A stretch of 33,923 bases of DNA from Candidatus Muiribacteriota bacterium (lineage in GTDB: Bacteria > Muiribacteriota > DAOVTB01): NCBI GenBank assembly GCA_030633305.1, contig DAOVTB010000021.1:1-33923 (forward strand), read 5' to 3'. The position numbers were made by a program, and so were the translations under genes. Below the pieces are notes generated by a model. It was not told the DNA's origin, did not search any database, and saw only the letters and a list, made by a program, of their open reading frames with translations. Below, piece by piece: positions 4,076 to 29,473 of this stretch (position 1 is the first letter of the stretch; each line of letters opens with the position of its first letter).

Positions 4076-5863
4076 GTGATTGAAATTTACAAAGAACGTT
4101 TTGAAAAATATCAGATAGAATTAAAAAAAAAGGAAAAACGCCATCAGTTATTATCAATAATACGGATGGTGCTTTTTCTGTTTTCAGTTTTTTTTATTGT
4201 CTATCTAATCGAAAGTAGAAGTCATTATCTGAAATATTATTTGTTTTCTGCTACAGCCTTGTTCAGTATTATTTTCATAGTGCATGAAAAAGTAATAAGA
4301 AGAAAGGATTATTACAAAGCTCTTTGCGAGATCAACAGGATTGAAATAGATAAGTTACATGGACTTCATGGCGAATTATATCCTGGAACTGAATTTATGG
4401 ATTCGTCTCATCCTTATACCGTGGATCTGGACATTTTTGGACCAGGCTCACTTTATCAATATATTAACAGGGCACAAACATATCATGGGAAACTATGTCT
4501 TGCTGATTGGCTGAAAACTCCTGAAACAGAAATTGAGATCAAATGTCGCCAGGAAGCAGTTAAAGTTTTGAGTCAAAAAATAGACTGGAGACAGGAATTA
4601 GAGGTAATTGGTTTGCTTGAGAAAGAGTCTTCAAGAAATCCAACTGGTCTGTTAAAATGGTTAGCGCTTGAACCTATTCTTAATAATTCAAAAAGTATTA
4701 GAATTATAGTAAATCTGCTTAGATTGATGTTGCCAGTTACATATTTTTTATCATTTTTAGTTATTCCAGCCAGTATTCCATCATTATTTCTTATTATCAA
4801 TCTCCTTGTTATTTTATTCAGTGAAAAATATGTAGCTGAACTATATTCCAAAACATGTGGTATGGCTCGTACATTAAATACATATTTGAAATTGTTTGAA
4901 CATATTTCAAATGAAGATTTTGATTCTGAAAAACTGATCGATTTAAAAATGAAACTAATGAGTAATAACTATTGTGCCCCAGTTCATATTAAGAAACTGA
5001 CACGATTACTTGGCTGGCTGGATCTTCGTAAATCAATGATACATCTTCCTTTTAACTGGTTTTTTCTCTGGGATCTGTATTTTGTGAATTTACTTGAAAA
5101 ATGGAAATTGACCGTTGGAAATGATCTGGCTGGCTGGATAGAAATAATTGGTGAGTTTGAAACATTAAGTAGTTTATCATGTCTGTATTACGAAAACCCT
5201 GACTGGTGTTTTCCTGAAATAACTGATGGTTTTTTTAATTTTTCTGCCAAAAATCTTGGACATCCTCTGATTATAAAAGAAAAGCGGGTTTGTAATGATT
5301 ATAAGCAGGGAGATGACAATGTCGTAACGATAATTACTGGATCAAATATGTCTGGGAAGAGCACGTTTTTAAGGACTATAGGAGTGAATATGGTGTTGGG
5401 TTTATGTGGTGGTCCGGTGTGCGCGTCCTTGTGCAGTATGAGTCCGGTTTTTCTATATACTGGCATGAGTTCAAGAGATTCACTTGAAAAAGGAGTGTCA
5501 TCATTTTATGCAGAACTTGAAAGGATCAGGATGGTTTTAGATGCTATTGAATCAAAAAAAAATATATATATGCTTTTTGATGAGATTTTAAAAGGTACCA
5601 ATTCTGAAGACGGACACGCAGGTGCAGTTGCGCTTTTAGAGCAGTTAATCAAAGAAAAAGTATTTTGTATTATAGCAACTCATGATCTTAAGCTCGGAGA
5701 TTTGGAAAAAAGCTTTGAACAGAATGTAGCAAATTATTGTTTTAATGGAACTGTAAACGATGGACAGTTAGCTTTTGATTACAGTTTGACTGATGGGCTA
5801 TGTTCATGTAGGAATGCAATAGCTTTGATGCGTATAATGGGAATAAATATCCCTGAGTCCTGA
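4076..5863 (+). CDS. MutS-family ATPase (MutS domain V only) with N-terminal transmembrane segments
   Basis: GTG start. Walker A GSNMSGKSTFLRTIGVNMVLG, later motif YMLFDEILKGTNSEDG and IIATHDLKLG. Hydrophobic helices near residues 30-70 and 210-250. No mismatch-recognition domain I. Confidence 0.85.
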   Translation: MIEIYKERFEKYQIELKKKEKRHQLLSIIRMVLFLFSVFFIVYLIESRSHYLKYYLFSATALFSIIFIVHEKVIRRKDYYKALCEINRIEIDKLHGLHGELYPGTEFMDSSHPYTVDLDIFGPGSLYQYINRAQTYHGKLCLADWLKTPETEIEIKCRQEAVKVLSQKIDWRQELEVIGLLEKESSRNPTGLLKWLALEPILNNSKSIRIIVNLLRLMLPVTYFLSFLVIPASIPSLFLIINLLVILFSEKYVAELYSKTCGMARTLNTYLKLFEHISNEDFDSEKLIDLKMKLMSNNYCAPVHIKKLTRLLGWLDLRKSMIHLPFNWFFLWDLYFVNLLEKWKLTVGNDLAGWIEIIGEFETLSSLSCLYYENPDWCFPEITDGFFNFSAKNLGHPLIIKEKRVCNDYKQGDDNVVTIITGSNMSGKSTFLRTIGVNMVLGLCGGPVCASLCSMSPVFLYTGMSSRDSLEKGVSSFYAELERIRMVLDAIESKKNIYMLFDEILKGTNSEDGHAGAVALLEQLIKEKVFCIIATHDLKLGDLEKSFEQNVANYCFNGTVNDGQLAFDYSLTDGLCSCRNAIALMRIMGINIPES

Positions 5864-5973
5864 TTGAGCGAATATTGAATTATTCAGTATCATTTCAGAC
5901 CTCAACGCACAATAGTGCGCCTCGGCCTACCCGGATACTGAATAATCCAATCTTCATCTCATTCAGAACGCAG
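5853..5973 (+). repeat. Palindromic 3'-end element, copy R4 (121 bp)
   Basis: Outer arm CTGAGTCCTGATTGAGCGAATATTGAATTATTCAGTATC pairs with GATACTGAATAATCCAATCTTCATCTCATTCAGAACGCAG. Overlaps the stop codon of the MutS-like gene. Confidence 0.85.
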
Positions 5974-6007
5974 GGAATAGGTGATAAAAGATAAATAAAA
6001 ACTGTAG

Positions 6008-6029
6008 GGACAGGCCCCTGTGCCTGTCC
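6008..6029. repeat. Short perfect hairpin GGACAGGC-CCCTGT-GCCTGTCC
   Basis: 8-bp perfect inverted arms with a 6-nt loop, 10 nt upstream of the radical SAM start codon. Confidence 0.7.
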
Positions 6030-6038
6030 AATATTAAA

Positions 6039-7220
6039 ATGATCAACAAAAAATATATAACTATTAATACTGCTTTGAGAAAAAGCCAGATGCCATCTCC
6101 AATGTTTGCATGTAGATATAGTGTTTCTCCATATGTGGCTTGCCAGCATGCTTGTAAATACTGTGATGGCCGTGCAGAAAAATATTATGTTGAAGGTGAT
6201 TTTGAAAAGGACATAAAGATCCGAAAAAATCTTTGTAGCGTATTAGAATCAAATATTAAAAATATTCGTGAACCTGGAATAATTTCTATTGGTTCTGGAG
6301 TCAGTGACCCTTATCAACCAGTTGAGGAAGAAGAAAGTCTTATGAGGGGAGTTGCTGAAATAATCCAGACATCTTCTCTAGGAGCTGCAGTTTTAACAAA
6401 ATCTTCTCTTGTTCTCAGGGATTTGAAACTATGGGAAAAAGTGCATAAAAACAGTTCGTTTATATTAATGGTTTCTCTTACATCTATAGACTGTGAGACT
6501 ATGGAACTTATTGAACCCGGAGCATCAAATACCAAAAAAAGATTGGACGCTATAAAGCAATATAAAGATAAAAAGATGTATGTTGGAGTATTGGCAATGC
6601 CATTTCTACCATTTATCACAGATGGCGAGGAGAGTATTGGAAAACTTGGATCAGCTCTAAAATCAATTGGAGTGGATTTTGTAATTCCTGGAGGTTTAAC
6701 CCTTAGACCAGGCTGTCAAAAAGAAACATATTTTGAAATGATTTCAAGAAACTTTCCAGATTTAATTGATAAATATAAAGATCTTTATTGTGAAAATAGA
6801 CAGTCAGGATCTCCTAAACGTGATTATTCCCAATTATTGAATAAAAGGGTGAACAGGATATTTTCTGACTTGGAAATACCAATGGAAATTCCACATTATA
6901 TTTATAAAAATTCATTTCCACTTTATGATGAAATCTATATTCTTCTTCACCATATGGTTTCTCTTTACAGTAACAGGGGGATTGATATCGGAGCACTTAA
7001 AAAAGGTGTGTCTGGCTATTCAAAGTGGTTATATAATAGCAGAAAAAGTTTTAATCGGAATCGAAGAGAAAGTTACAAGACTTTTGAAAACAAATTCAAA
7101 CAGTTTATAATCAGCAAAGATTTCTATAAAATAATAGACAACAGAAAACTACGCGAATTTATCATTCAGGTTGTAATTGACAAAAGAGAATTCAATTATA
7201 ATACTTTAAAACTCATTTAA
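6039..7220 (+). CDS. SPL-family (spore photoproduct lyase-like) radical SAM protein
   Basis: CX3CX2C cluster motif CQHACKYCDGR near the N-terminus, followed by ISIGSGVSDPYQPVEEEESLMRG and AVLTKSSLVLRDL, typical of the SPL radical SAM family. Confidence 0.85.
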   Translation: MINKKYITINTALRKSQMPSPMFACRYSVSPYVACQHACKYCDGRAEKYYVEGDFEKDIKIRKNLCSVLESNIKNIREPGIISIGSGVSDPYQPVEEEESLMRGVAEIIQTSSLGAAVLTKSSLVLRDLKLWEKVHKNSSFILMVSLTSIDCETMELIEPGASNTKKRLDAIKQYKDKKMYVGVLAMPFLPFITDGEESIGKLGSALKSIGVDFVIPGGLTLRPGCQKETYFEMISRNFPDLIDKYKDLYCENRQSGSPKRDYSQLLNKRVNRIFSDLEIPMEIPHYIYKNSFPLYDEIYILLHHMVSLYSNRGIDIGALKKGVSGYSKWLYNSRKSFNRNRRESYKTFENKFKQFIISKDFYKIIDNRKLREFIIQVVIDKREFNYNTLKLI

Positions 7221-7281
7221 GTAATTAACACGTAGAGCTAGTCCGTATTTTATCTGTGTTGAATTGTGGCTAATATATTTT

Positions 7282-9936
7282 TTACTGGCAATCAAGATCC
7301 ATAATTGGATCTTCTGCTTCAACTTCCATATCAGCGTCCATCCCGCTTAAATCCATATCTAGTTTTGCTATCTTACCTTTAAGTCTTCTAATCATCAAGT
7401 AAACGATAGAATCTTTTGGATTTCCAGTATCTTTCTTTTTTGAATTTTTAAAACACAGGTCAAAGTTTGGAAACTTTTTATAAAGTCTGTTACATACCTT
7501 TAAAGCGTCTTCGTTTCTTTTCATTGATTCATAACATAATGCAATTTGAAAAAGAGAAATCTCAAGTTTTCTTGAAGCCCAGTTTTCCTTTTCTATTTTC
7601 TGGAAATAGGCAAGAGCTTTACTGTTTTGACCCATCATCTTGTGGATAGTTCCAAGATGATAGTTAATTGCTTCTTTAGTTCTAGGATTTACCTGTTTTA
7701 AATAATCCCTGGCATATTTAACAGATTCTTTAAGATATTCTTTTCTTTTTGCCTTATCTTTTTTAGCCAGTTTAAGGTAAAGGTCACTGATATTTTTAAG
7801 AAAACCAAAAGTGTCATCATTATCAGTATAAGAAGTCATGAGAGTTTTAAAATTCTCAATTGCCTCAAGTATAGCATCATTACTTGTATCAAATCCCAAT
7901 GTTGCACCACTGATTTTTGAATGAAGTTTCAGCATGGTATCAACAACCTTGGTCCTCTTGAGTGCTTTATTATAAAATTTGATAGTTTGAACAAACATTT
8001 TTTTCTTTTGCTCTTTTTTCTTGGACATCAATTTTTTATAAGTATCTCCAATCAATTCTTCAATCATGGACTTCCTCTCACGCTCAATTCTAGGATAATC
8101 TTTCAACAATTGCTGATATTGTAGTAGAGACTGTTCCAAAGCAGCAAGTTTCATAGGGGCGGCACCAGGACCAGATGATATTCTTTTATAAGCCAGGGCT
8201 TTAGCAAGATATGCATCTATAGCAGTACCCTTATCCAGGTTAGGATTACTAAGGATTTCATCACCCATGGAAATGGCACTGTGGTGAGCTTCAAGTGAAC
8301 TATAAATTGCAATCAGATCCAGATTGTATTGGTCTGCTTTTTCAGGAAATTTGTCAACAAGAGTATGGTAAATCATCGCTGCCGTGTTGTAATTTTTAGC
8401 TGTTTTAAATTCAGTTGCAAGTTTAATAAGATGTGCTTCATTGACTTTAATAGATTTAAACTTCTTATTTGTTTCAGTAATGAATTGTTTGACATATTCG
8501 CCTTCAACAGAAGTTAAAGCAATCTGTGAGGTGATTTTTTTCAAATCTTTAAAAAAGAGTATAGCGTCATAAATTTCAACATTTTCTAAGAAAATACTAC
8601 ATTCATCAAGAATTTTGCGTAGTTTATTTCCTTTTGCCTTTAGGATTTTTGGATAGATCTTACTGGAATACGTTTTTTCAATAGTCATGAGATATTCAAG
8701 TGCTTCAGAAAGATGTTTCTTTAATTCATCCCGGGATGTCAAATACTTCAAATGTTTCTTTACCGATTCCATTTGTTTTTTTGCAATCATAAGCTTTACC
8801 AGCTCGACTTGAAACTCAGACATCCGTGTAATCCAGATTGGGCTTGTCCATGCATGTTCACCATCGGCTTGAATGATCTGAGCAACATAAAACCTATCTG
8901 TAAAATCGAGAGGAGTCTCAAATTTAAGTGTATTAGAATCTGTTGAACTTGCAACTTTTTTTCCGAGTGCACCACAATCGACTGAATCCGTAAAAAGTGT
9001 AATCGATTTTGGTATTTCTCCATCGGGATCATCACAAGTGACTGTAATAATTGCATTTCCACGCTTGCCTTGATTAAAGACCCTTTCTCCCATTAAATAT
9101 TCATTTCCATCACATTTTGCAGTTAGAACAACTGATAGATTTCTATCCTGTGTTGCGAATGTTCTTCCAGCTATCATTGCTTTTCTTATTTCTTCAGAAT
9201 TTAATTTGTCAGCAAGAATTCCTGTCATTGTATTTGTAGCAAGTCCCCATGTCATAAAATGGTTGTCCTGGTTTGCTACAGCTGCGAGATGCCAGCCGCG
9301 ATTTAAAAGAATGAGGAATTGATCTTCGTAATCCAGGCTTTTTCGTGGAGCATCAAGCCTTGTAGCAAAGGCAGAACCATTAAAAAGTTCAACTGCAACT
9401 ATGCGATCATCCATTATAGGGTTATAGTAATATCCAAAATCAAAGGTTTCAGGATGATTTAAAATACCGATTGCTTTTTTATCATTGGAAAGGAAATCAA
9501 AATATTTTTGAAGGTGTAAATATTGATTATCATAGGTAGGAATCTTATCACAAAGCATGTTTTTAGAAAAAAGTGTTCCGATATGTCCAGTAACACTCAT
9601 TACTCCCCATTCGCCACCATAGGTTACAGCGAAGTCAGATTTCTTAAAATTTGAACTTTCATTTTTCAATCTCTGATGGAATTCATTACTTACCATATGA
9701 GAATGAGGGGAAAGCCCAAAGAAATCCAGTTTTCCTTTGTCTCTAGCAAATGTGTATGCTTTCTCTATTGTAGCATTTACCTGTTTATTGTCATCTCCGC
9801 CTTCTGAATTATGAGCATGAAAAAGCCCGAAATAAACATTGTATCCATTTGATTGACGTGCTGAAACAGGCACATTGAGAATGAAAATGAAAAGTACTGC
9901 TAAAACCAGAATATTTTTTAGAGATAGAAAATGCAT
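7282..9936 (-). CDS. Secreted CehA/McbA-like PHP-fold metallohydrolase domain with C-terminal TPR region
   Basis: Signal peptide MHFLSLKNILVLAVLFIFILNVPVSA. Putative metal-binding motifs FHAHNSEGG, GLSPHSHMV, LNHPETFDFG and NQDNHF. Repeated TPR-like helical pairs in the C-terminal half. Confidence 0.75.
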   Translation of the reverse strand: MHFLSLKNILVLAVLFIFILNVPVSARQSNGYNVYFGLFHAHNSEGGDDNKQVNATIEKAYTFARDKGKLDFFGLSPHSHMVSNEFHQRLKNESSNFKKSDFAVTYGGEWGVMSVTGHIGTLFSKNMLCDKIPTYDNQYLHLQKYFDFLSNDKKAIGILNHPETFDFGYYYNPIMDDRIVAVELFNGSAFATRLDAPRKSLDYEDQFLILLNRGWHLAAVANQDNHFMTWGLATNTMTGILADKLNSEEIRKAMIAGRTFATQDRNLSVVLTAKCDGNEYLMGERVFNQGKRGNAIITVTCDDPDGEIPKSITLFTDSVDCGALGKKVASSTDSNTLKFETPLDFTDRFYVAQIIQADGEHAWTSPIWITRMSEFQVELVKLMIAKKQMESVKKHLKYLTSRDELKKHLSEALEYLMTIEKTYSSKIYPKILKAKGNKLRKILDECSIFLENVEIYDAILFFKDLKKITSQIALTSVEGEYVKQFITETNKKFKSIKVNEAHLIKLATEFKTAKNYNTAAMIYHTLVDKFPEKADQYNLDLIAIYSSLEAHHSAISMGDEILSNPNLDKGTAIDAYLAKALAYKRISSGPGAAPMKLAALEQSLLQYQQLLKDYPRIERERKSMIEELIGDTYKKLMSKKKEQKKKMFVQTIKFYNKALKRTKVVDTMLKLHSKISGATLGFDTSNDAILEAIENFKTLMTSYTDNDDTFGFLKNISDLYLKLAKKDKAKRKEYLKESVKYARDYLKQVNPRTKEAINYHLGTIHKMMGQNSKALAYFQKIEKENWASRKLEISLFQIALCYESMKRNEDALKVCNRLYKKFPNFDLCFKNSKKKDTGNPKDSIVYLMIRRLKGKIAKLDMDLSGMDADMEVEAEDPIMDLDCQ

Positions 9937-10016
9937 AAAACCTCCGCATTAAATATTTTATATCTTTATACTATTATAATGGAAATAAGAAATATGACAA
10001 TGGTATGAAATATATA

Positions 10017-12215
10017 TTATTCTGACCATCTCAAAATTGAGAGAAGATTTGAATATTGATCTGTCCAAATTTTAAAGTTATCACTGGGTTTTAGACTTCG
10101 CCATTCGTCGATTTCGCTAAGCGAACCAATAAAAATTTCATCTTGTGACATGACAGCATAATTTGCAGCAACTCTGTACTCCTTGTTATCTTCTTCGTTA
10201 AGAGCAACTTCAAAGCGACAGATGAATTTCAAATTAACTTTTTCTGATAATGCAGCAAGAAGAGGCTCAATGTTAAGAAATCGATTTGATATATGGAAAA
10301 TTATAATTCCGCCAGGCTTCAGCTTTTTTTTGTACAATTCAATAGCCTCAAGTGTTATAAGATGAGATGGAATAGAGTCAGAACTGAATGCGTCGAGGAT
10401 TATAATATCAAAGTAGTGATTTTTCTCTTTTTTAATACATAATCTTCCATCTCCTTGTATAAGTTTGATATTTGCGTTAGATTTTTTTACAAAAGAGAAA
10501 AAATCAGGATTTAATGCGATATCGATTACGTCAGGGTCAATTTCATAAAACTTCCATTGTTCACCTTTATTTCCATAATATGCCATAGCACCAACACCTA
10601 AACCAATAACCCCAACATCAAAAATTTTCTTCTGATTTCTGATTAGACTGAAGATATCACCAAGAGGTCCTTTGGGGTGATAGTAGATTCCTGGAACTGA
10701 ATTGTTGGATATTTGTTGATCCTGTACTCCATGCCATGTATTACCATGAATAAAAATATGGTAATTGTTTTTAGCTTTTTCAATTCTTTTCACACTAAAA
10801 AAATTTCGTGATCTATAGATAACCTGTCCATCATTTTCGGAGATCCAGAGAGGAAGGACAATAAATAAAGTTCCAACGCATAATGCGAATCTTAATGGAT
10901 AGTCTTTTGCAGCAAAACAGGCTACTGTTGGAATCCCAAAAAGGAGCATGAATATGACTGTTTTATCATTTATTCCTGTGTGCAGAATTAATTTGATTAT
11001 AAATATTCCAGCTATAAGCATTAATGCTGGAAGTACGATATCTAATAATCGATTTTTATAATTTTTCTCATGGCTGTTTCTAAAAATCAGTGCAATAATA
11101 ATTAGAATAGGATATTCCGCTACAGAATTAAAAATTGCTATAGCCAGGACAGAATTGAACAATCCTCCCAGAACACCACCAACTGAAATTGAAAGATAAT
11201 AATCTGTGAGGAATTTTGAATCCGGTCTCAGGCTATACAGTTTATTATGACATAGAAGTGCTAAAAGGAAGAAAAGTGAAAGATGAACAGGAATTAGAAT
11301 CCAGTTCATCTGCTTTAATTCGGTAAAATTAAAAAGTACAACCGGAAGGACAATATAAGGCAGGAATTTAGTAATCCACAGCATTTTAGATGAATATTTA
11401 CCTGAAAAACTGATTATGTATGTGAGAAGATACAAAGCAAGTGGCAAGATCCATAGCAATGGTACTGGAGTAAAATCAGTTGTAATATGTGCAGTTACTC
11501 CAAGCATCAGACTTGATGGAATAAATGCCATTGTGATTATCTTTAATTTAGAATGTAAATTAAGGTTTTTTTCAATGTCACAAGGAGCAGTTGTGTTCTG
11601 AACTATGACATTTCCTTTTTTTTTCCAAAATTTGAAAATAATATAAAAAAAAAGCAGGATATAAAGCAGAAATATAAATGACCATAAGAGATTCTGATTT
11701 TTGAGGGTAAACACAGGTTCAATAATGATTGGATATATGATCAGTGCTAAAAAAGATCCAGCATTACTTGCAGAATAAAGAATATAAGGATTTGCTGAAG
11801 CGTTTTCCGATAACTCTGCAAAGATTTTCTGGATAAGCGGAGCATTGCACGAAACTGCGAATACAGGTATTCCAGCAACCATAAAAAGTTGAAAAAGAAG
11901 CCTTAGATTCTGGAAATTGCTGGTATTTTCTGGAATAAAATTATTGATAGCAAGGGGAAGTACAATTATTGGGATTAAAAGGATGAAAATATGTATGATA
12001 AGAGATTTTTTTAATCCAGTAATCCTTGTTATTTTGTGAACATAATAATATCCGGCAAGGAGTACAAGTTGGAAAAAAAACATGCAAGTATTCCATACCG
12101 CTGAAGTTCCACCCCAGTATGGTAAAACCATTTTTCCGATCATCGGTTGAATTAGAAAAAGCAGAAAAGAACCCAGGAATATACAGATCCCGAATGTTAA
12201 AGTTTTAGATTGCAT
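10017..12215 (-). CDS. Fused multi-TM / spermidine synthase-like methyltransferase-fold protein
   Basis: About 10 or more hydrophobic segments, then GVIGLGVGAMAYYGNKGEQWKFYEIDPDVIDIA, IKLIQGDGRL, DIIILDAFSSDSIPSHLITLEAIELYKKKLKPGGIIIFHISNR. Confidence 0.85.
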   Translation of the reverse strand: MQSKTLTFGICIFLGSFLLFLIQPMIGKMVLPYWGGTSAVWNTCMFFFQLVLLAGYYYVHKITRITGLKKSLIIHIFILLIPIIVLPLAINNFIPENTSNFQNLRLLFQLFMVAGIPVFAVSCNAPLIQKIFAELSENASANPYILYSASNAGSFLALIIYPIIIEPVFTLKNQNLLWSFIFLLYILLFFYIIFKFWKKKGNVIVQNTTAPCDIEKNLNLHSKLKIITMAFIPSSLMLGVTAHITTDFTPVPLLWILPLALYLLTYIISFSGKYSSKMLWITKFLPYIVLPVVLFNFTELKQMNWILIPVHLSLFFLLALLCHNKLYSLRPDSKFLTDYYLSISVGGVLGGLFNSVLAIAIFNSVAEYPILIIIALIFRNSHEKNYKNRLLDIVLPALMLIAGIFIIKLILHTGINDKTVIFMLLFGIPTVACFAAKDYPLRFALCVGTLFIVLPLWISENDGQVIYRSRNFFSVKRIEKAKNNYHIFIHGNTWHGVQDQQISNNSVPGIYYHPKGPLGDIFSLIRNQKKIFDVGVIGLGVGAMAYYGNKGEQWKFYEIDPDVIDIALNPDFFSFVKKSNANIKLIQGDGRLCIKKEKNHYFDIIILDAFSSDSIPSHLITLEAIELYKKKLKPGGIIIFHISNRFLNIEPLLAALSEKVNLKFICRFEVALNEEDNKEYRVAANYAVMSQDEIFIGSLSEIDEWRSLKPSDNFKIWTDQYSNLLSILRWSE

Positions 12216-12224
12216 AGCGAAATT

Positions 12225-12312
12225 TTACCACGAAGGACACGAAGAAACACGAAGAAAAAATAATAAGAATACAAAAATTAGCCACAGATAGACACAGATT
12301 AAACATGGATAA
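12225..12312. repeat. Low-complexity intergenic repeat motifs: (ACGAAGRAAC)n-like block and CCACAGATAGACACAGATT block
   Basis: ccACGAAGGACACGAAGAAACACGAAGAAA (three ~10-nt units), then tagccacagatagacacagattaaacatggataag. The second block matches the reverse complement of 32470-32500. Confidence 0.7.
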
Positions 12313-12469
12313 GAGAACTGTTGGTAATCTAAGGATTATATATATTTTGCTTTTTATAACTCAAATCGGTAATCAGTATTTGTTATTTTCTTGTTATTGT
12401 ATTGGGATACAGTCTGCAAGTGATACCAAGCTATATTATTATTTGATCATTTGTTGTTAAGGTTTTTTT

Positions 12470-12506
12470 TAAGAACAGCCTGAAAGGCCTGTTCTAAGTT
12501 TTTTTC
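12470..12506 (+). terminator. Intrinsic-terminator-like hairpin plus T tract
   Basis: AGAACAGCC-TGAAA-GGCCTGTTCT stem (one bulge) followed by AAGTTTTTTT on the + strand. Confidence 0.6.
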
Positions 12507-12519
12507 TACTTTAACTGTT

Positions 12520-12640
12520 CTGCGTTTTGAATGAGATGAAGGTTGGATTTTTCAAGACAATTTATGCTGAGGTGTTGTACCCTACTCCGCAAGCATAAAT
12601 TGGTGCAGAAAAATTCAAGATTCGCTCATTCAGGACGCAG
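12520..12640 (-). repeat. Palindromic 3'-end element, copy R1 (121 bp)
   Basis: ctgcgttttgaatgagatgaaggttggatttttc...gaaaaattcaagattcgctcattcaggacgcag, inner stem AATTTATGCT/AGCATAAATT. By hand about 95% identical (6 differences in 121) to the reverse complement of 26865-26985. Confidence 0.9.
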
Positions 12641-12641
12641 G

Positions 12642-13937
12642 TTAGGGGATTCCTTCGAATTCGACCGAGTTATTGGACTGCACATAAATACCATACTTAT
12701 CCATAATGTTTTTAACAGTCAGTGTATAAATCTGAGATGATGTTTGAGGATCAACTGAGATAAGAACTTTTGCTTCTGTGCTCATTTCAAGTGTTGCACC
12801 GGTTATTTTCAGGAATGGATTCAAAAAGTAGTTATTTATGTTTTGTGCAGTTTCAATTTTTAAAGGTTCTGAAAACAATAATTCAATTGAAGTCGAGTTT
12901 ACCGGATTTGCACTTATTAAATCGGGAGGATCAATACCATCAAATGAAATCAGAATTGTATCAATTACATTTCCGGCAAGATCTGTTAAATCCTCAATAG
13001 TCAATGTATAAACTTTAGCTTCGATCTGATTTGAAGTAGTTAAAGTTATCGTCCGTTGGTCTTCTTCAAGATGGAGACTTTTAATAATAAGGCCACCATC
13101 AACAGAAAAACTATTGGCATTTTCAGCTGTAGCCTGTGTTATTTTTTCGCTTAAATATACTTTAATGATATTATTATCTGTTGATTGGACGTATGTTACA
13201 GTGGGTTTTACCAGCTCTGATCGTGGTGCAGTTGTAAATGAAAAAGAATAATCTGCTTTTAAAGGATTTTCTACAAGATCCTTTGCGGCAGTACTTATTG
13301 TAACAGTGTATACAGTATTATTGTCTAATTCAATACTAGGATCAAATGTAAGTTTGAGATCATCCCAGTTGAAGACTCCCTGAACTGATGGAGAAATTGA
13401 AAATGCGTTATATACGGATGTTCTATCCATATCTTCTGAGAAAGTAATCTCAACATTATCTTTGACATTGATGCTAATTGCATCTTTAGCAGGATAGACC
13501 AGACTTACAGCCGGATTTTCAAATGGTGTTGAAAATGTGAAGAAATGACTTTTTCCAATCCTGTTTCCATAGGTATCATAAGCTGTATCATTTATTGTTA
13601 CCGTATATTTTTGATCCCATTTAAATCTTGGCTCTGGATCAAATTTTAAAACAGTTCTTTCAGGCCAGGAAAATTCTCCAGCAACAGCAGGATCTATTGT
13701 GAAAGCCTGTTCTGTTTTACTTTTATGCATTGGACGATAAAAGCGGATGTACAGGTTTGATCCAGCAACAATTCCACCTTCACCGCTATCGGGAGTCGTG
13801 GATTTGACTTCGTTGGGATAGGAAAGAAAGATATCATCTTCAACAGTAGAGTTATCATCAAATAAAGGATTGACACATCCGGTAAAGATAAGAATTATAA
13901 ATGAAAAAAGAGACAGGAATAGTAGAGTACGTCTCAT
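12642..13937 (-). CDS. Lipoprotein with repeated Ig-like (Big_5/SbsA-like) domains
   Basis: The track ORF starts at 14036, but ATG at 13937 (MRRTLLFLSLFSFIILIFTGC) has a GAGGAAAA ribosome-binding site and a lipobox FTGC. Repeats like 'YPAKDAISINVKDNVEITFSEDMDRTSVYNAFSISP...NNTVYTVTISTAAKDLVENPL'. Confidence 0.85.
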   Translation of the reverse strand: MRRTLLFLSLFSFIILIFTGCVNPLFDDNSTVEDDIFLSYPNEVKSTTPDSGEGGIVAGSNLYIRFYRPMHKSKTEQAFTIDPAVAGEFSWPERTVLKFDPEPRFKWDQKYTVTINDTAYDTYGNRIGKSHFFTFSTPFENPAVSLVYPAKDAISINVKDNVEITFSEDMDRTSVYNAFSISPSVQGVFNWDDLKLTFDPSIELDNNTVYTVTISTAAKDLVENPLKADYSFSFTTAPRSELVKPTVTYVQSTDNNIIKVYLSEKITQATAENANSFSVDGGLIIKSLHLEEDQRTITLTTSNQIEAKVYTLTIEDLTDLAGNVIDTILISFDGIDPPDLISANPVNSTSIELLFSEPLKIETAQNINNYFLNPFLKITGATLEMSTEAKVLISVDPQTSSQIYTLTVKNIMDKYGIYVQSNNSVEFEGIP

Positions 13938-14089
13938 AAGTGTTTTCCTCGTTAATATTATTTCTAAATTACTATCGGTCAACTTTTGAATTACTTTATG
14001 TTTCATTTCATAATTATTGACTTGTATTATCAGCAACAGTTATTGTATAATGTGATAGATTGAAATATATTTTATAGAGGTGAATTATC

Positions 14090-14542: not shown

Positions 14543-14666
14543 TATCAATTTATTCAAAAACCTATTTTAAATTTCTATTCATACAAGTTATTATATAGAA
14601 TAATTTTTATGAATTTATTTTGTCTGTTCTAAGATGTTTTTTCTTATCTTTTTCAATAAAACTGTC

Positions 14667-14785
14667 CTGCGTTCTGAATGAGTTGAAGGTTGGATTTTTC
14701 AAATCTGGTCAATTCGAGATGTGCTTTTGTACATTGAGGATTGAACTGATTTTAAAGGTTCAAGATTCTCTCATTCTGGACGCAG
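14667..14785 (-). repeat. Palindromic 3'-end element, copy R3 (119 bp)
   Basis: ctgcgttctgaatgagttgaaggttggatttttc...ggttcaagattctctcattctggacgcag. Outer arms conserved with R1/R2, inner part diverged. Confidence 0.85.
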
Positions 14786-14786
14786 G

Positions 14787-16130
14787 TTAGTTTAAACTGA
14801 AATTTATTGTTTGGATTACCCATGCATTGACCGCTTTTCCGTTCTTCAGCGGTGGATTAAATTTCCATTTCCGAATGTTTTGAAGGACATAAGCTGAAAA
14901 TTTCTGACCGATTGTCTGCTCGATGACCTGGACATTATTGATTTTTCCAGCAGCCCTGATGAATAATTTTACGACTATTTTTCCGCTGATTCCCTTTTTT
15001 TCAGCCCATTCAGGATATCTTAATTTTGCACTTGCAATGAGCTCAGGTGCTTTATCAAGACCATCGGTGTAAGGACCCGTAGTAAGAGATTTTTTTATAA
15101 TAGGTGAAAAATCAACGACATAGTCACTGTTTAATTTAACTTTTTCATTATCATCATTGCTGTTTTCAGAATCAATAAGTGGTGTAAACTTCTTTCTGTA
15201 TTTATTGTGATTATCAATAATTATTTTTTTTGTTTTTTTAGAAGTATCATCAAGTACAGTTATGTTTCCAGCTTTTTTGATTCTGTCATCCTGGATGATT
15301 AAATTATCTTTTTTTATGGCTTTACTGGAATGGTCATCAATAGCAAGTAGATTAAACTTTTTTAATGTAGATTTTTGAACAACTTTTTTATCATCAATAT
15401 TCAGAATTTTTACAGAATTGATACGGCTCAATTTTTTATTTGCTAGTGAAAAGTGTTTTTTTGCAGTTTTTTTATTGTCATCAAAGGCATCTACGAGTAG
15501 CCGTTTAGTGAAATCCATTTTTCTGTGAATCCTGGGTTTCATATTTTCTTTTTTTGCTACTGCAATATTTCTATGTTTAATTATTTTTTTCTTGTTGAAA
15601 GAAGATGTACTTGCAACAAGTATCTTTTTTTTCTTATAGTTTTTTATATTTTTCTTTACATATTTTTTTGTATGTTTTACAGGATTCAGTTTTTTTCTAA
15701 CAGTTTTTTTCTTCTTTTTAATGGGTTTTTTCTTACTTTTTTTTGTTTTATTGCGCTTTTTGATATTTCGTTTTTTCTTTCTGATAACTTTTTTACGAGT
15801 CTTTTTCTTTTTTTTGACTGCTTTTTTTGGCGGTATTTTTATTTTTTTCTCAGTCTTTTTTTCTTTTTTTAACAATTTGACATTCATGTAAGTATAAGTT
15901 TTATCAGGTGTTTTTGTTTTATTGTAAAGCATGAAGCCCAATGCAAGAAAAATAAGGATATGTATTATGAAGGAGACAACGATCTCCTTTTTGATTTTTA
16001 ATACTGCTTCGCCAATATCAAAAAAAAGTTCTATGAGGAAAGCAGATATCACAGCAATAAATTGCTGGATTTTGAAGCTTAATTTCTTCATTCCTTCCAA
16101 AAAGTAGAACTTTAATTTTTTTTTATTCAT
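14787..16130 (-). CDS. tonB: TonB-family energy transducer with extremely Lys/Arg-rich linker
   Basis: N-terminal TM segment (VSFIIHILIFLALGFMLY). C-terminal TonB domain: LRYPEWAEKKGISGKIVVKLFIRAAGKINNVQVIEQTIGQKFSAYVLQNIRKWKFNPPLKNGKAVNAWVIQTINFSL. Confidence 0.88.
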   Translation of the reverse strand: MNKKKLKFYFLEGMKKLSFKIQQFIAVISAFLIELFFDIGEAVLKIKKEIVVSFIIHILIFLALGFMLYNKTKTPDKTYTYMNVKLLKKEKKTEKKIKIPPKKAVKKKKKTRKKVIRKKKRNIKKRNKTKKSKKKPIKKKKKTVRKKLNPVKHTKKYVKKNIKNYKKKKILVASTSSFNKKKIIKHRNIAVAKKENMKPRIHRKMDFTKRLLVDAFDDNKKTAKKHFSLANKKLSRINSVKILNIDDKKVVQKSTLKKFNLLAIDDHSSKAIKKDNLIIQDDRIKKAGNITVLDDTSKKTKKIIIDNHNKYRKKFTPLIDSENSNDDNEKVKLNSDYVVDFSPIIKKSLTTGPYTDGLDKAPELIASAKLRYPEWAEKKGISGKIVVKLFIRAAGKINNVQVIEQTIGQKFSAYVLQNIRKWKFNPPLKNGKAVNAWVIQTINFSLN

Positions 16131-17138: not shown

Positions 17139-17158
17139 AAATTATATCCTCCAGTAGA

Positions 17159-20896: not shown

Positions 20897-21001
20897 AAAA
20901 TACTTACTCCAAAAAATACTGAATTCTAATTACTTTGTTGAGAAAATTTTAAAATCCTGTTAAAAGATGTATCGGCAGATAAGGTAAAAGACAATAAAAT
21001 A

Positions 21002-21021
21002 AAATTTCAAGATTCGCTCAT
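21002..21021 (-). repeat. Possible fragment of the palindromic element (one half-arm)
   Basis: AAATTTCAAGATTCGCTCAT matches the arm GAAAAATTCAAGATTCGCTCATTCAG of R1/R2. No partner arm nearby. Confidence 0.5.
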
Positions 21022-21102
21022 GGGGGTGGGCCAATTTCTTTTATTTACAAAGATATTATTATTAAGTATAATGACTAAATATTAACTAGGAGGATTTTTT
21101 GG

Positions 21103-21879
21103 ATGAAACAATTATCAATGTTATTAATTTGCTCTCTTATGCTTGCTGGTATGGCTTTTACTCAGTCAGGTGCTGGTTTAGGACCTGTTACACTTAAACT
21201 TGGAGGAAAAGTAGGGCAGTCAAGTGAATATACGATGACGATGAATATGTCAATGAAACTTAGTTCCGCTGATGGTGTTCAGAATACAAAAATGGATAGT
21301 GAAATGCTGATTGAGAAGAAGATTCTTGATATTGATAAAAATATTATTAAATCAGAAACTGTGATCAAAAAAAGCAAGGTTCTTAAAGAAGGTGTTGAAG
21401 TACCTACACAAATCGATGGTCAGGTTACAATTATTGAACAGAACAGGAATGGTAAAATATTGAAACAGGAAGTTATTGGTTCTAAACAGCAGTCCAGTTT
21501 TAAAGCGCCATCGACTGTTTTTCCTGAAAAACCAATCAATATTGGTGCGGTCTGGAGCGGAAAAGAAGAACTTCCTCAACAGATGTTTATGAAATATAAA
21601 AACAAGTTGATCAATATTGAAAAGAAAAGGGGTAAATTGATTGCAACTATTGAAATTGATCTTTCCATCAACTCATCTCATCCTATGTTGAAAGCTAGTG
21701 GTAAAGGAAAAGGAATGTTGTATTTTAATGTGGATGATGGCGACATCGAAAAGTCTACAATGAAGATGAAGATGAACGTAAATATACCTGGACCAGATGG
21801 AAAAGATATTGTTAATGAGACAGTTATGAAAATGACTATGAAGAAGTTAAAAAATATGAGAGAGAAATCTTTGAGGTAA
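21103..21879 (+). CDS. Secreted protein of unknown function (DUF6263-like)
   Basis: RBS AGGAGG upstream, signal peptide MKQLSMLLICSLMLAGMAFTQ, beta-rich sequence. Family assignment tentative. Confidence 0.7.
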   Translation: MKQLSMLLICSLMLAGMAFTQSGAGLGPVTLKLGGKVGQSSEYTMTMNMSMKLSSADGVQNTKMDSEMLIEKKILDIDKNIIKSETVIKKSKVLKEGVEVPTQIDGQVTIIEQNRNGKILKQEVIGSKQQSSFKAPSTVFPEKPINIGAVWSGKEELPQQMFMKYKNKLINIEKKRGKLIATIEIDLSINSSHPMLKASGKGKGMLYFNVDDGDIEKSTMKMKMNVNIPGPDGKDIVNETVMKMTMKKLKNMREKSLR

Positions 21880-22325
21880 TGATTCAAAGGATTAGAGTAT
21901 CTGGTGTACTGGTAAGTGATAATAAGATCTTACTGGTATCGCATAAAAAGAAAGATGATGAATACTGGCTTCTGCCAGGTGGCGGAGTTGATGTTGGTGA
22001 AACACTTGAAGTTGCATTGCTCAGAGAGTTTCTGGAAGAAACTGGTATTCATGTTAAAGTTGAGAAGGTACTTTTTTTATCAGATACAATTTATCCTGAT
22101 GCATCAAAACAGATTCACCACATTATATTTGCAGTAAGCGAGGCGGTATCCTCTGTTGACAGAATTTCTATTTCTGATGCTGACATTGTTCAGGCTAAAT
22201 ACATTGAGATCAGTAAGTTGAAAGATTTGAAGTTTTATCCACCGGTAAATGAAAAAATCATGGAGTTTCTTCATAGTGGTGATCAAAGATACGGTGCTGA
22301 ATATCTTGGGAAATTATGGGAGTAA
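21879..22325 (+). CDS. Nudix hydrolase
   Basis: Nudix box GGGVDVGETLEVALLREFLEETGI (GX5EX7REUXEEXGU). TAATG overlap with the upstream gene. Confidence 0.92.
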   Translation: MIQRIRVSGVLVSDNKILLVSHKKKDDEYWLLPGGGVDVGETLEVALLREFLEETGIHVKVEKVLFLSDTIYPDASKQIHHIIFAVSEAVSSVDRISISDADIVQAKYIEISKLKDLKFYPPVNEKIMEFLHSGDQRYGAEYLGKLWE

Positions 22326-22327
22326 AT

Positions 22328-24904
22328 ATGGAAAGCAAGAGTCTTGATAAAGTAATTGAAGAAAGTTTGAAAATAATCGCGAAGAATCCCGAGGATTTTT
22401 ATGCATATTATAATCTTGGTCGTGCATATGAAACTACGGGTAAAATTGATGAAGCGATTATTGCTTTCAGAAAAGCTCTGGATATTAATCCTAGTGATGC
22501 TTATGCGAAAAACTTTATCGGGCTATGTTACAAGGAAAAAGGTCTCTTAAATGAGGCAATGGTTTATTTTAAAGAAAGCATAGAATTAAAAAATGATTAT
22601 TTCTGGGCTTATAGTAATCTTGGGACAATTTATAAATTAAAGGGGATTTGGGACAGGGCTGTAACTCAATTTAAACTTGCACTTAAATTAAATCCTGAAT
22701 TTGTTAATTCTTTGATCAATCTTGGACTACTTTATTATGAAAGAGCTCAGTATCAAACTGCAGAAGAATACTTTAGAAAAATACTGAAGGCTAATTCTAA
22801 TAATGCTTATGCACATTACAAATTAGCACTTATTTATATTAAACAGGGAACTCTTAAAAAGGCGATAAAAGAGATTAAAAAATCTACGATTTTAAATCCC
22901 AATGATGCATACAGCTGGAATCAGTTATGTCTTATCCATATGAAAATGGGAAGTCTTGATGAAGCAATGGATGCATGTCAGAAGGCGTTAAATATTGATG
23001 AAAACTATATTTATGGTCATCTGAATATGGGAGTTATCTATAATAGTAAAAATATGCCAACAGAGGCGATTCAGCGCTTTGAAAAAGTTCTTTATATTAA
23101 TCCATACAATCTTGAAGCACATTATCAGCTTGGTATCGCGTATGCAAAAAAGGATATGCTTGATGCCGCGATTGTGCAATTGAAAAAAGTTGAGAATTAC
23201 AAAAATCTGTTTCCTCAGACTTCTTTATTTCTCGGTCTTATATATCGTAGAAAAAGTGAGTATGAAAAGGCTTATCAGGAATTTCAAAAAGCAGTAGTAA
23301 AAGAGCCGTTTAATCCACATTCTTTTTATTATCTAGGCCTTGTTAATAATGATTTGGCAAAGCTTGATAAGGCTAGAGCTGCTTTTGAAAAGACTATCCA
23401 ACTGGAACCACGATACAAGGATGCTTTTTTTCGTCTTGGAAATATCAGTGATCTCAAAGGAAATTATGATGATGCAGTTGAATACTGGAAGAAAACAGAC
23501 GAGATAGACACAGACATTGAAAAACCTCTTGATTTTTCCAAAATAAATCCAGTGCAGATTGACAGTGATATCGAAGAAGTTCTTGAGCAGATTAAGGATA
23601 ATCCAAATGATGCCAACAATCATTTTCTGCTGGCATGTTTATATCGCAATAAAAGTGATATGGATAATGCTTTGATCGAATTTGAAAGAGTTCTTGAACT
23701 CCGTCCTGATGATAAGCAGGCAGATTACTATATTGATCTTATTAAGGATAAAAAAGGTTTTTTTGATAAAGAACTGATAATGTGGAAGAAAGAAGTTTCC
23801 AGAGATCCTGAAAATCAGTTGGCTCATTACAAACTTGGTTCTGTTTATAAGAAAAAAAGTATGATTGAAGATGCTGTTCAGGAATGGGAAAAGGCTATTT
23901 CACTTAAACCTGGTCACATAGAAACACGGTTTGCTCTTGGAAAGGGATATAAATCACGTGGAGAATCAGGTAAAGCATGTGAACAATGGAAAAAAGCTCT
24001 AGAAATAGATCCTAAAAATCAAGAATGTTATCATCTTTTAATCAGTGAATTCCGTAATAGTGGTTTTCTTGATGAATCTGAAGCCTTGCTTGACAGATAT
24101 GGTCAGAATTTTTCTTTCGACTATTTCTATAATTATAATAAGGGTCTTATTTCCAAGTACAGGAGTAATCACGTTGACGCAAAAGAATTTCTTGAAAAAG
24201 CTTTGAATCTAAGAGAAGGAGATCCAAACCTTTATTATTATCTTGCAGAGATTAACCGGGTAACTGGAAATGTGATGGAATCCATTAAATATGCAAGAAA
24301 AGCCCTTGTTTTAAATAAAGAACATTCTCTGGCCTATTACAGTATTGCGCTGTCATATTTTCAGGAAAATGATCTTGAGCAAGCCCTGGAAAATTTGAAG
24401 CAGGTATTATTGTATAATCCTTTTGATGAATTTGCATGTTATAAACTGGGTGTAATCTATAAAATGCAGGGGGAATTTGAAAAAGCTGCAGATAGTTTTA
24501 AAAAAGCACTTGAAATCAATCCAGAAGATGTATATGCATATACAAGGCTGGGTGTGATTTATCTTGAAACAGGAAGGTTGGAACTTGCAATCAAGATATT
24601 AACTAAAGGGTGCATGATCAATCCAGAAGATGAATTTGCACTTTATAATCTTGGTATCTCATTTTATGATGCAGGTAAATACCAGGAAGCAATTAAGGTA
24701 TGGAAAAAGTTGATTACAATAAATCCTACTGATTCTTATGCATTTTACCAGATAGGCTATGCGTATGAAGATATGGGGGAATATCAGCTTGCTATAGAAT
24801 TCTGGCGTAAAGCTATCAAATTTATCAGTATTGAAAGCAAGGTTGCCAAGTTTATTAAGGAATCTATTGATAAAACTCAATGTCTTTTGGATCGTAAAAA
24901 ATAA
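22328..24904 (+). CDS. Large TPR-repeat protein
   Basis: Around 20 TPR units (e.g. FYAYYNLGRAYETTGKIDEAIIAFRKALDINPSD). The ATG at 22328 has GGGAG upstream; the track start is 22316. Confidence 0.9.
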   Translation: MESKSLDKVIEESLKIIAKNPEDFYAYYNLGRAYETTGKIDEAIIAFRKALDINPSDAYAKNFIGLCYKEKGLLNEAMVYFKESIELKNDYFWAYSNLGTIYKLKGIWDRAVTQFKLALKLNPEFVNSLINLGLLYYERAQYQTAEEYFRKILKANSNNAYAHYKLALIYIKQGTLKKAIKEIKKSTILNPNDAYSWNQLCLIHMKMGSLDEAMDACQKALNIDENYIYGHLNMGVIYNSKNMPTEAIQRFEKVLYINPYNLEAHYQLGIAYAKKDMLDAAIVQLKKVENYKNLFPQTSLFLGLIYRRKSEYEKAYQEFQKAVVKEPFNPHSFYYLGLVNNDLAKLDKARAAFEKTIQLEPRYKDAFFRLGNISDLKGNYDDAVEYWKKTDEIDTDIEKPLDFSKINPVQIDSDIEEVLEQIKDNPNDANNHFLLACLYRNKSDMDNALIEFERVLELRPDDKQADYYIDLIKDKKGFFDKELIMWKKEVSRDPENQLAHYKLGSVYKKKSMIEDAVQEWEKAISLKPGHIETRFALGKGYKSRGESGKACEQWKKALEIDPKNQECYHLLISEFRNSGFLDESEALLDRYGQNFSFDYFYNYNKGLISKYRSNHVDAKEFLEKALNLREGDPNLYYYLAEINRVTGNVMESIKYARKALVLNKEHSLAYYSIALSYFQENDLEQALENLKQVLLYNPFDEFACYKLGVIYKMQGEFEKAADSFKKALEINPEDVYAYTRLGVIYLETGRLELAIKILTKGCMINPEDEFALYNLGISFYDAGKYQEAIKVWKKLITINPTDSYAFYQIGYAYEDMGEYQLAIEFWRKAIKFISIESKVAKFIKESIDKTQCLLDRKK

Positions 24905-24990
24905 TCTTCCCATAAAATTCTTGCGTCGTTATTAATTATAAGGTATATAAGAGGTAACTTTTAATACTATATTATAAAAAGGAGTTTTAA

Positions 24991-25992
24991 ATGAAAAATA
25001 TTGTAAATCTTCATCCTGATGATGGTAATAAGATGTCATTCAATGCTGGTGAAATACAACTTTCTCCAAAAATTATTGGTATAATAATTCTTGTGTTATT
25101 TGTAGTTTATCTTGGGAGCGGTATTTATATTATCGGTCCTGATGAGCAGGCAGTAGTTAAAAGATTTGGAGCTTTTATACCTCCAGAAGTAGAACAGGGT
25201 CTTCATTATCATTTCCCATGGCCGATTGAAGAAGTCATTAAACTAAAAGTTACTGAAACAAAACGTATTGAAATTGGGTTTAGAACTATTAATATGGGGC
25301 CAACAGCTCAATACAACCATATTTCTGAAGAAGCCAGAATGCTGACTGGTGATGAAAATATTATTTCTATTGAGATGGTTGTTCAATACAGGGTCCTTAA
25401 TCTTGGAAAATATCTTTTCAAAGTTGAAAATCAGGAAAGAACGCTTAAGCAGGCTGCGGAAGCTTCTTTGAGGCAGATTATTGGGCAGACTATGTTTGAT
25501 AAAGCTATTACAACTGAGAAACAGGCTTTACAGGATAAAATAAAGATTCTTCTGCAAAAGATTTGTGATGATTATGATATTGGATTTAGAATTGAAAAGA
25601 TAAAATTCCAGGATGTTAAACCGCCTGATCAGGTTATGGAAGCCTTCAAGGATGTATCCAGTGCTCGTGAAGACAGTAACAGATATATCAATGAAGCCCA
25701 GGCATATTATAATGATATTGTTCCAAAAGCTGAAGGTATTGCAGCCCAGATGACTCAGGAAGCAACAGCTTATAAGTTAGCAAGAATTAATCAGGCAAGT
25801 GGTGAGGCAGAAAAGTTTCTAAAAATTTATAATGCTTATGCAAAGGCTCCTGAAGTTACTAAATCCAGGTTGTATTTTGAAACTGTAATGGATGCCTTGA
25901 AAGACGTAAAACTGACTGTTGTTGATGAAAAGCTATACGACATTCTTGATGATCTTAAGGGAATTGTACAAAAGAAAGGAGCACAAAAATGA
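24991..25992 (+). CDS. hflK: HflK-like SPFH/band-7 membrane protein
   Basis: YIIGPDEQAVVKRFGAFIPPEVEQGLHYHFPWPIEEVIKLKVTETKRIEIGFR, then QVMEAFKDVSSAREDSNRYINEAQAYYNDIVPKAEG, typical of HflK. Confidence 0.93.
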   Translation: MKNIVNLHPDDGNKMSFNAGEIQLSPKIIGIIILVLFVVYLGSGIYIIGPDEQAVVKRFGAFIPPEVEQGLHYHFPWPIEEVIKLKVTETKRIEIGFRTINMGPTAQYNHISEEARMLTGDENIISIEMVVQYRVLNLGKYLFKVENQERTLKQAAEASLRQIIGQTMFDKAITTEKQALQDKIKILLQKICDDYDIGFRIEKIKFQDVKPPDQVMEAFKDVSSAREDSNRYINEAQAYYNDIVPKAEGIAAQMTQEATAYKLARINQASGEAEKFLKIYNAYAKAPEVTKSRLYFETVMDALKDVKLTVVDEKLYDILDDLKGIVQKKGAQK

Positions 25993-26849
25993 ACGAACAG
26001 AAAATAACTATACTTTTAGTAATAATTGGTGTTCTTTTGGCTTCTCTTTCTCAATTTATTTTTACTGTTGATGAAACCCAGCGAGCTATGATTATTCGAT
26101 TTGGTAAACCATCAAGAGTTGATATTCAACCTGGACTCCACTTTCGTCTGCCATCTTTTATTGATAAAGTTTTATATTTTGATATTCGTATTAAGGACTA
26201 TGATGCAGATGCAAAAGATATTACAACAAAAGATAAAAAGATGCTTAAAATCGATAATTATTCAAAATGGCGAATTTCAAATCTTTTGACATTTTATCGG
26301 AAAGTCAGGACTGTTGAACTGGCTATCAGTAAGATCGATGATATCATTTACAGTGTTTTACGAAATGTTTGTGGAAATTATAAAATGATCGATATTGTAA
26401 ATACAAAACGTGATGAAATACTCGAAAAAGTCTTAAAAGAGTGTAGGAAAAATGGTAAGGATCTTGGTATAGAGATTGTTGATGTAAGAATTAAAAGAGC
26501 AGATTTACCACGAGAAAATGAAAATGCTGTTTATGAACGTATGCAAACTGAGAGAGTTCAGCAGGCAAAGAAATATAGATCAACTGGACGAAAAATGGAA
26601 TTGATAAAAAAGGCGATGGCCGACAGGTTGAAAATCGAACTTCTTGCTTCTGCAAAGCGTGATGCAGAGATTTTAAAAGGTGAGGGCGAAGCGGCTACAA
26701 TTGAAATTCTGGCTGAAGCATATGGTAAAGATTTAGACTTTTATAAGTTTTATAAATCACTTGAAATCATGCGAACTAGATTTAAGAAGAATATTAATAT
26801 ATATTCCAGTAGTGACGTGGAGTTTTTAGACGTATTCTTTAAAAGATAA
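25989..26849 (+). CDS. hflC: HflC-like SPFH/band-7 membrane protein
   Basis: ATGA overlap with hflK. FTVDETQRAMIIRFGKPSRVDIQPGLHFRLPSFIDKVLYFDIRIKDYD, and ADLPRENENAVYERMQTERVQQAKKYRSTG. Confidence 0.93.
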   Translation: MNEQKITILLVIIGVLLASLSQFIFTVDETQRAMIIRFGKPSRVDIQPGLHFRLPSFIDKVLYFDIRIKDYDADAKDITTKDKKMLKIDNYSKWRISNLLTFYRKVRTVELAISKIDDIIYSVLRNVCGNYKMIDIVNTKRDEILEKVLKECRKNGKDLGIEIVDVRIKRADLPRENENAVYERMQTERVQQAKKYRSTGRKMELIKKAMADRLKIELLASAKRDAEILKGEGEAATIEILAEAYGKDLDFYKFYKSLEIMRTRFKKNINIYSSSDVEFLDVFFKR

Positions 26850-26864
26850 TCTCTGCGTCCTGAT

Positions 26865-26985
26865 CTGCGTTCTGAATGAGCGAATCTTGAATTTTTCTGC
26901 ATCAATTTATGCTTGCGGAGTAGGGTACTACACCTCAGCATAAACTGCCTTGAAAAATCCAACCTTCATCTAATTCAAAACGCAG
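26865..26985 (+). repeat. Palindromic 3'-end element, copy R2 (121 bp), preceded by a partial duplicate of its terminus
   Basis: ctgcgttctgaatgagcgaatcttgaatttttc...gaaaaatccaaccttcatctaattcaaaacgcag. The preceding ctgcgtcctgat (26853-26864) looks like a duplicated end. Confidence 0.9.
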
Positions 26986-27030
26986 AAGAAGTTTATAAAA
27001 AAAGAAAAAATTTACATTTCTATACCAATT

Positions 27031-29143: not shown

Positions 29144-29178
29144 TGCAACTTGACACGTTGCACGTTTCGTTATATAAT
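29144..29178 (+). promoter_or_regulatory. Consensus sigma-70 type promoter with overlapping operator-like palindrome for higBA
   Basis: TTGACA (29150-29155) - 17 nt - TATAAT (29173-29178). TGCAAC-N7-GTTGCA inverted repeat (29144-29162) spans the -35 box. Confidence 0.8.
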
Positions 29179-29184
29179 TACTAT

Positions 29185-29463: not shown

Positions 29464-29473
29464 CATGGAGGAT

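Follow-up and report, generated by a model that had tools for sequence, protein, structure and literature searches.

A dispersed family of hairpin elements at the 3' ends of genes and tRNAs in a Candidatus Muiribacteriota genome

Hairpin copies in the window and across the genome

The window, that is, the whole stretch of 33,923 nucleotides (nt) analysed from Candidatus Muiribacteriota bacterium (contig DAOVTB010000021.1 of assembly GCA_030633305.1), contains four copies, R1 to R4, of a hairpin element of about 120 nt, each lying at the 3' end of a protein-coding gene. Both their existence and their folding agreed with a first-pass annotation of this DNA. R1 (5853-5973, + strand), which scored 110.4 bits with a covariance model of the antisense strand, overlaps the stop codon of a gene for a MutS-domain-V ATPase (4076-5863); the element's own TGA (5861-5863) is the stop codon of this gene. 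R2 (12520-12640, - strand, 131.6 bits) and R3 (14667-14785, - strand, 109.3 bits) both have their foot 1 nt past a TAA, R2 behind the gene of a Big_5 (Ig-like) protein (12642-14036, - strand) and R3 behind that of a TonB_C protein (14787-16130, - strand). The foot of R4 (26865-26985, + strand, 129.4 bits) lies 15 nt past the TAA of an SPFH/Band_7 gene (25989-26849), the second member of a tandem pair. The annotation had given the right set of distances from stop codon to foot (one overlap, +1, +1 and +15), but had partly swapped their assignment to the individual copies. Each hairpin is followed by a tail, delimited from its sequence and from the tail of the family as a whole. The tail of R1 (5974-6003, + strand) is rich in A and poor in C, and those of R2 (12490-12519, read on the - strand), R3 (14637-14666, - strand) and R4 (26986-27015, + strand) are A-rich.

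The family was traced through the draft genome (4.64 Mb, 350 contigs, 90% complete) with two covariance models, the first built from 33 copies and the second representing the antisense strand. With 150 candidates scored, the first model matched 149 places genome-wide. An arm pattern gave 37 exact copies and none in the reversed control, a gapped core pattern gave 137 copies (control, 0), and independent arm patterns gave 151 3'-arms and 176 5'-arms with essentially empty controls. In 729 kb not selected for matches, the second model added 2 strong copies and several fragments; therefore, the family comprises at least about 150 copies, and probably about 160-175. Chance similarity or an assembly artefact, in favour of which nothing but the draft state of the assembly can be named, has a negligible probability and was ruled out, since every copy has unique flanks, the reversed controls are empty and covariation is massive.

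Neither model found a copy in the 39 further genomes searched from this phylum, which included no genome of the same genus or family, and the plasmids and phages searched contained no copies. A conserved 18-mer gave 13 single matches in 85,000 species (257 Gb), none of them fitting the model, where an estimated 7.5 or so were expected by chance, and a lax gapped pattern gave only chance-level matches in IMG/VR. Nothing but tRNAs exceeded the Rfam gathering score in the window and 12 further loci, and the element was accordingly not assigned to a known RNA family. The family is lineage-specific, non-coding and dispersed, and is confined to this genome among those searched.

Nearly all copies are 119-124 nt long and form an asymmetric hairpin. 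On the sense strand, the 5' half consists of a variable outer stem of ~13-14 bp followed by GAG-C-GA-nnn-TTG-A-AWWWTT, the centre is an inner hairpin that varies and occurs in several types, and the 3' half reads AAWWWT-C-CAA-nnn-TC-AT-CTC, after which come the second half of the outer stem, ~10 nt composed of G/A/T, and the tail. The tail, which is ~20-30 nt long, contains 69% A and 4% C, compared with 38% A and 15% C at other gene ends, and its composition does not depend on whether the following gene runs co-directionally or convergently; the tail belongs to the element. When 101 copies were aligned, 96.2% of the cells were paired, double changes were found in 38 of 45 pairs, and the covariation was 0.516, compared with 0.205 after shuffling and no more than 0.116 when the structure was slid.

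The outer stem occurs in 116 distinct 13-nt versions in 138 copies, and pairing extends 3-4 nt into the flanks, differing by locus. Identical 75-nt interiors were found at unrelated loci with outer stems that differ by about two compensated pairs. Either the outer stem is under strong selection for pairing, or it is re-made at insertion, or it is corrected by template switching; the last of these alone would not account for the retained internal mismatches.

Nested and truncated copies are also present, and the truncated ones include fragments with a 5' arm only. In the window, an additional 5'-arm fragment, CTGCGTCCTGA (26853-26863, + strand), immediately precedes R4 and, judging by its sequence, is either what is left of an earlier copy or the product of a partial duplication; similar nested arms were found at C258 and C77. 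A lone 5'-arm fragment, ATGAGCGAATCTTGAAATTTT (21001-21037, - strand), lies in a divergent promoter region away from gene 3' ends. Behind the copy at C65:3517 there is an additional 3' arm of another subtype. The older remnants beside newer copies at C65:3517 and R4 suggest that one site may be hit by repeated insertion. Another small hairpin repeat (GGTGCCAG..CTGGCACC; GGTGCCAGATGG...AAGTGCCCTGGCACC) occupies a similar place, in the same orientation, in the loop of about eight copies (C35:350, C54:11856, C127:42215, C209:8847, C244:12615, C246:5541, C247:7476 and C282:3489).

Placement at stop codons and tRNA ends

Placement was assessed without a gene caller, by scoring open frames of at least 70 codons that enter the element and end no more than 60 nt from its foot. 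Such a frame enters 124 of 134 copies. The frame ends between -26 and +17 nt from the foot in 120/134 copies, compared with 150 of 3000 random positions (5%); in 81 of the 134 the end falls at 0 to +5, with a peak of 38 copies at exactly +1. No reversed orientation was seen among the copies examined. The fixed orientation at gene 3' ends, which the first-pass annotation had proposed from the four copies in the window, therefore holds genome-wide, and neither placement nor orientation is random.

In 33 copies, the stop codon lies within the element and is usually the element's own TGA. No stop-like triplet was enriched in the flanks of these copies, and no upstream sequence motif was found in them; therefore, no motif such as TAAY applies in general, and TAA or TGA as a DNA target motif was ruled out. 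The genes that precede the copies are ordinary ones with no relation to each other (100 of their proteins contained 192 Pfam families), which ruled out a regulon. One of them is the rho gene, which ends 6 nt ahead of a copy cut by the contig end (L140 5339-5445, C99).

Among the copies that do not follow an open frame in this way, several stand behind tRNAs; in all, five copies lie directly 3' of mature tRNA ends. At C246 (L079 2100-2875), tRNA-Ser, tRNA-Ser and tRNA-Arg follow one another with one copy after each, and these copies start 0, -3 and +1 nt from the respective CCA ends; behind the second tRNA, the stem of the element has the CCA itself as its base. This three-tRNA array recalls gene cassettes. 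Adjoining copies were also found at a tRNA-Glu and, in very divergent form, at a tRNA-Leu. A multi-copy sequence that ends in an intrinsic terminator (C13:1-276, C238:26452-26653, C338:15123-15286 and C144:4646-4802) is followed by the element in three of its copies and lacks it in one copy that is 80% identical; this paralogue of the C13 flank is too divergent to define the junction.

A very stable hairpin shortly past stop codons resembles an intrinsic terminator, and canonical T-run terminators are scarce in this genome, where a simple scan found them at background frequency and a rho gene is present. However, the tail of the element is A-rich rather than T-rich, and a T-run follows the hairpin in 14/138 copies only; the ordinary terminator role suggested earlier was not borne out, and a canonical terminator was ruled out. 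Dispersed unusual terminators without a T-run would have the scarcity of canonical ones in their favour. They are nevertheless very unlikely, given that some copies stand behind genuine terminators, that others lie between closely spaced tRNAs or between genes a few nt apart, and that the hairpin is weaker on the mRNA strand.

All neighbours have one property in common, namely that an RNA or a coding region has its 3' end there, and this motivated the reading that insertion is directed to RNA 3' ends. According to this reading, a mobile hairpin would recognise not a DNA motif but the ends of mRNAs (stop codon), mature tRNAs (CCA) and terminated RNAs, would be copied with its A-tail in one orientation, and would have its outer stem re-made to pair with each neighbour. 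Taken as a whole, this is rather improbable.

Mobility and likeness to known repeats

The median distance from the element to the next gene is 269 nt, and that from the stop codon to the next gene is 265 nt in genes without the element, as expected if the element is an inserted extra module. No target-site duplication was detected, the best of 3000 offsets (z=3.7) being at chance level. In the part of the draft genome that was read, an autonomous relative with the same terminal repeats was found neither among the copies nor among the solitary arms.

The first-pass annotation had also proposed mobilisation in trans by a transposase of the kind associated with repetitive extragenic palindromic (REP) sequences. 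There are six Y1 transposase genes in the genome, and none is flanked by element arms. The one at C204 (L166) has GTAG-tagged hairpins on both sides instead, at 1134 (- strand) and 1693 (+ strand) (GTAGGGGAGGGTCTGTGACCCTCCC). The genome therefore carries a separate system of REP-associated tyrosine transposase (RAYT) and REP, independent of the element, and mobilisation of the element by a RAYT was not supported. GTAG-tagged hairpins sometimes occur ~30-40 nt downstream of the element, as at position 6003 of the window; the hairpin there (GTAGGGACAGGCCCCTGTGCCTGTCC, 6003-6028) is of a different type from those at C204. Another dispersed repeat is present in the window at 12273-12304 and 32475-32506 (CACAGATAGACACAGATTAAAC / ...ATCTGTGTTTATCTGTGGC), as a pair that is 88% complementary. 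Neighbouring small genes at 29104-29767 resemble, by eye, a HigB/HigA-type toxin-antitoxin pair.

A search for the integron integrase (TIGR02249) gave nothing above the cut-off in the 90%-complete genome. The attC boxes RYYYAAC and GTTRRRY were found at the feet of 4 and 6 of 138 copies, respectively, and never together (0/138). With neither box pairs nor an integrase, an integron attC was ruled out.

Retro-insertion was considered as a further route. The RNA of the element would be reverse transcribed from its tail, the enzyme would jump from the 5' end of this RNA to the 3' end of a cellular RNA (the CCA of a tRNA, the U-run of a terminated RNA or an mRNA cut at its stop codon), and the chimeric cDNA would recombine into the chromosome. 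Each of the three kinds of neighbour (tRNA CCA, terminator T-run and stop codon) could plausibly be an RNA 3' end, and the fixed order of gene, hairpin and A-tail fits such a route, as do the missing target duplication and the 33 copies without the gene's own stop ahead of the element, as if the junction lay immediately before that stop. However, a partial search of ~1.7 Mb of the genome in overlapping loci revealed no reverse-transcriptase motif, mRNA ends at stop codons are an assumption, and fragments with a 5' arm only are the reverse of the usual retro-truncation. Retro-insertion is therefore judged quite unlikely.

The element was compared with known repeats. It shares with the REPs and bacterial interspersed mosaic elements (BIMEs) of RAYT systems a high copy number, an extragenic location and an imperfect hairpin with conserved mismatches. 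However, it is ~120 nt long, compared with 20-40 nt for REPs as they are defined (PMC3733652), it lacks the GTAG tag (GTAG lies no more than 9 nt from either foot in 7/138 copies), its orientation is fixed, and the local RAYT is paired with other, GTAG-tagged hairpins. Miniature inverted-repeat transposable elements (MITEs) of bacteria, of the ERIC, RUP and NEMIS type, are non-coding inverted repeats of 70-300 bp that lie at gene borders and fold as RNA (PMC3733652). The element resembles them in size, inverted repeats, absence of coding sequence, location and folding. It differs from them in having no target duplication, ends that vary by locus and yet pair, and a fixed orientation and distance to the gene end. 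Hence, the earlier description of a REP- or MITE-like dispersed hairpin family stood as a likeness, but membership in the MITEs did not. The terminal inverted repeats (TIRs) of TIRYT transposases are long, occur in moderate abundance and are found in genomes that have Y1 transposases (PMC3733652). This genome resembles those in its long inverted repeats and Y1 genes, but 0/6 of the latter are flanked by the element. The attC family is characterised by folding as a single strand, a position directly after the stop codon, a fixed orientation, an extrahelical base and a favoured bottom strand. The element likewise lies directly after genes in one orientation, with an extrahelical base and the better fold on the bottom strand; in contrast to attC, it has no paired R boxes or integrase, is scattered singly on the chromosome and has a core conserved in sequence. 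It was not matched to any described family by the search tools used, and it fails one defining test each of REP, MITE and attC.

Folding strand and possible role

Given the copy number, position, orientation, structure and tail described above, the preferred explanation, with a probability of about 0.4, is a hairpin family inserted at RNA 3' ends that has spread in trans and whose placement is kept by a role as a 3' boundary. The ~120-nt asymmetric hairpin with its A-rich tail would be an additional module inserted at the 3' ends of RNA units (the stop codon, the mature tRNA 3' end and occasionally the T-run of a terminator), with the same side toward the gene. Copies would have been spread by a trans-acting enzyme, and their placement would be kept since the hairpin would form a transcript 3' boundary against 3'-to-5' exonucleases, as with REP hairpins, in a genome that has Rho but few T-run terminators. 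REP hairpins block 3'-exonucleases, and many REPs of E. coli are situated close to stop codons and affect mRNA decay or translation. Such a barrier may be the most economical function, at odds somewhat short of even.

Several observations weigh against this explanation and fit a barrier function poorly. Four copies, in two independent contexts, lie directly behind the T-run of an intrinsic terminator, where the mRNA would have ended earlier. A hairpin abutting the CCA of a tRNA would hinder exonucleolytic tRNA trimming. Neither a mobilising enzyme nor a close relative with empty sites was found. The strand opposite the gene folds better than the mRNA strand in 136/136 copies with RNA parameters (-67.7 compared with -49.9 kcal/mol) and in 135/136 with DNA parameters (-35.8 compared with -29.8), whereas control gene-end regions showed no strand difference (mean 0.02; 59/136). 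The G-U wobbles show no preference for the mRNA strand, and there is no sign of selection for pairing within the mRNA itself; therefore, a simple reading as a 3' untranslated region is weakened. The role in mRNA stability suggested by the annotation is possible, and must also explain why the opposite strand folds better and why copies stand after tRNAs and behind intrinsic terminators.

The strand difference arises from the sense mismatches C-A, A-C, T-C and C/AT, which on the opposite strand become U-G, G-U, a purine-purine pair and a single bulged A; the bulged A and the U-G/G-U wobbles are conserved there. Because this difference can mostly be traced to a single ancestral set of mismatches, the 136 copies are not independent observations. 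More independent support for the opposite-strand preference came from mismatches that occur sporadically in the central part of the outer stem (positions 5-10 except 7), where A-C was found in 45 unique contexts and G-T in 8. Elsewhere in the stem there is no such bias, A-C being as common as G-T.

These data bear on a selfish single-stranded DNA hairpin, in which an enzyme would bind the folded strand opposite the gene and insert it with fixed polarity, as integrases do on attC bottom strands and HUH transposases do on hairpins, and the position at gene ends would result from target choice and purging. The better fold and conserved features of the opposite strand point in this direction, as do near-identical cores at unrelated loci and the nested and truncated copies. 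However, the candidate machinery fell short in the searches described above (no integron integrase over the cut-off, no attC boxes and Y1 genes unlinked to the arms), there is neither a target duplication nor an upstream motif where the stop lies within the element, and most of the strand difference has a single ancestral source. In addition, leading-strand synthesis was estimated to use the folded strand as its template in 48/58 cases, which places this strand on the wrong side for capture during lagging-strand synthesis. This explanation is considered unlikely.

The same fold and wobbles, together with the 45:8 excess of A-C (G-U on the other strand) over G-T in the mid outer stem, would also be expected of a structured RNA made from the opposite strand, where antisense or convergent transcripts fold stably and shield or regulate the gene 3' end. 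However, the next gene is co-oriented in 71 of the 99 copies with both neighbours called, and therefore each of these would need its own antisense promoter; by inspection, the T-rich, G-poor stretch ahead of the fold has no -35-like motif. The equal frequency of the two mismatches in the remaining stem also speaks against such an RNA, which is thus improbable.

The best reading of the element is a REP-like family that is not REP, that is, a new family of dispersed hairpins inserted at RNA 3' ends. As a rule, the palindromic repeats of bacteria are linked only loosely to gene ends. The present family, a large one, is positioned with single-nucleotide accuracy at stop codons and at the 3' ends of tRNAs; its polarity is fixed and its outer stem is re-paired at each locus. 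Such precision in placement is far beyond that usual for known bacterial repeats. This makes it testable how repeats reach safe sites and whether they set transcript 3' ends where T-run terminators are few. To our knowledge, insertion directed to RNA 3' ends has not been described for bacterial repeats; if true, it would represent a new mode of insertion targeting among them.

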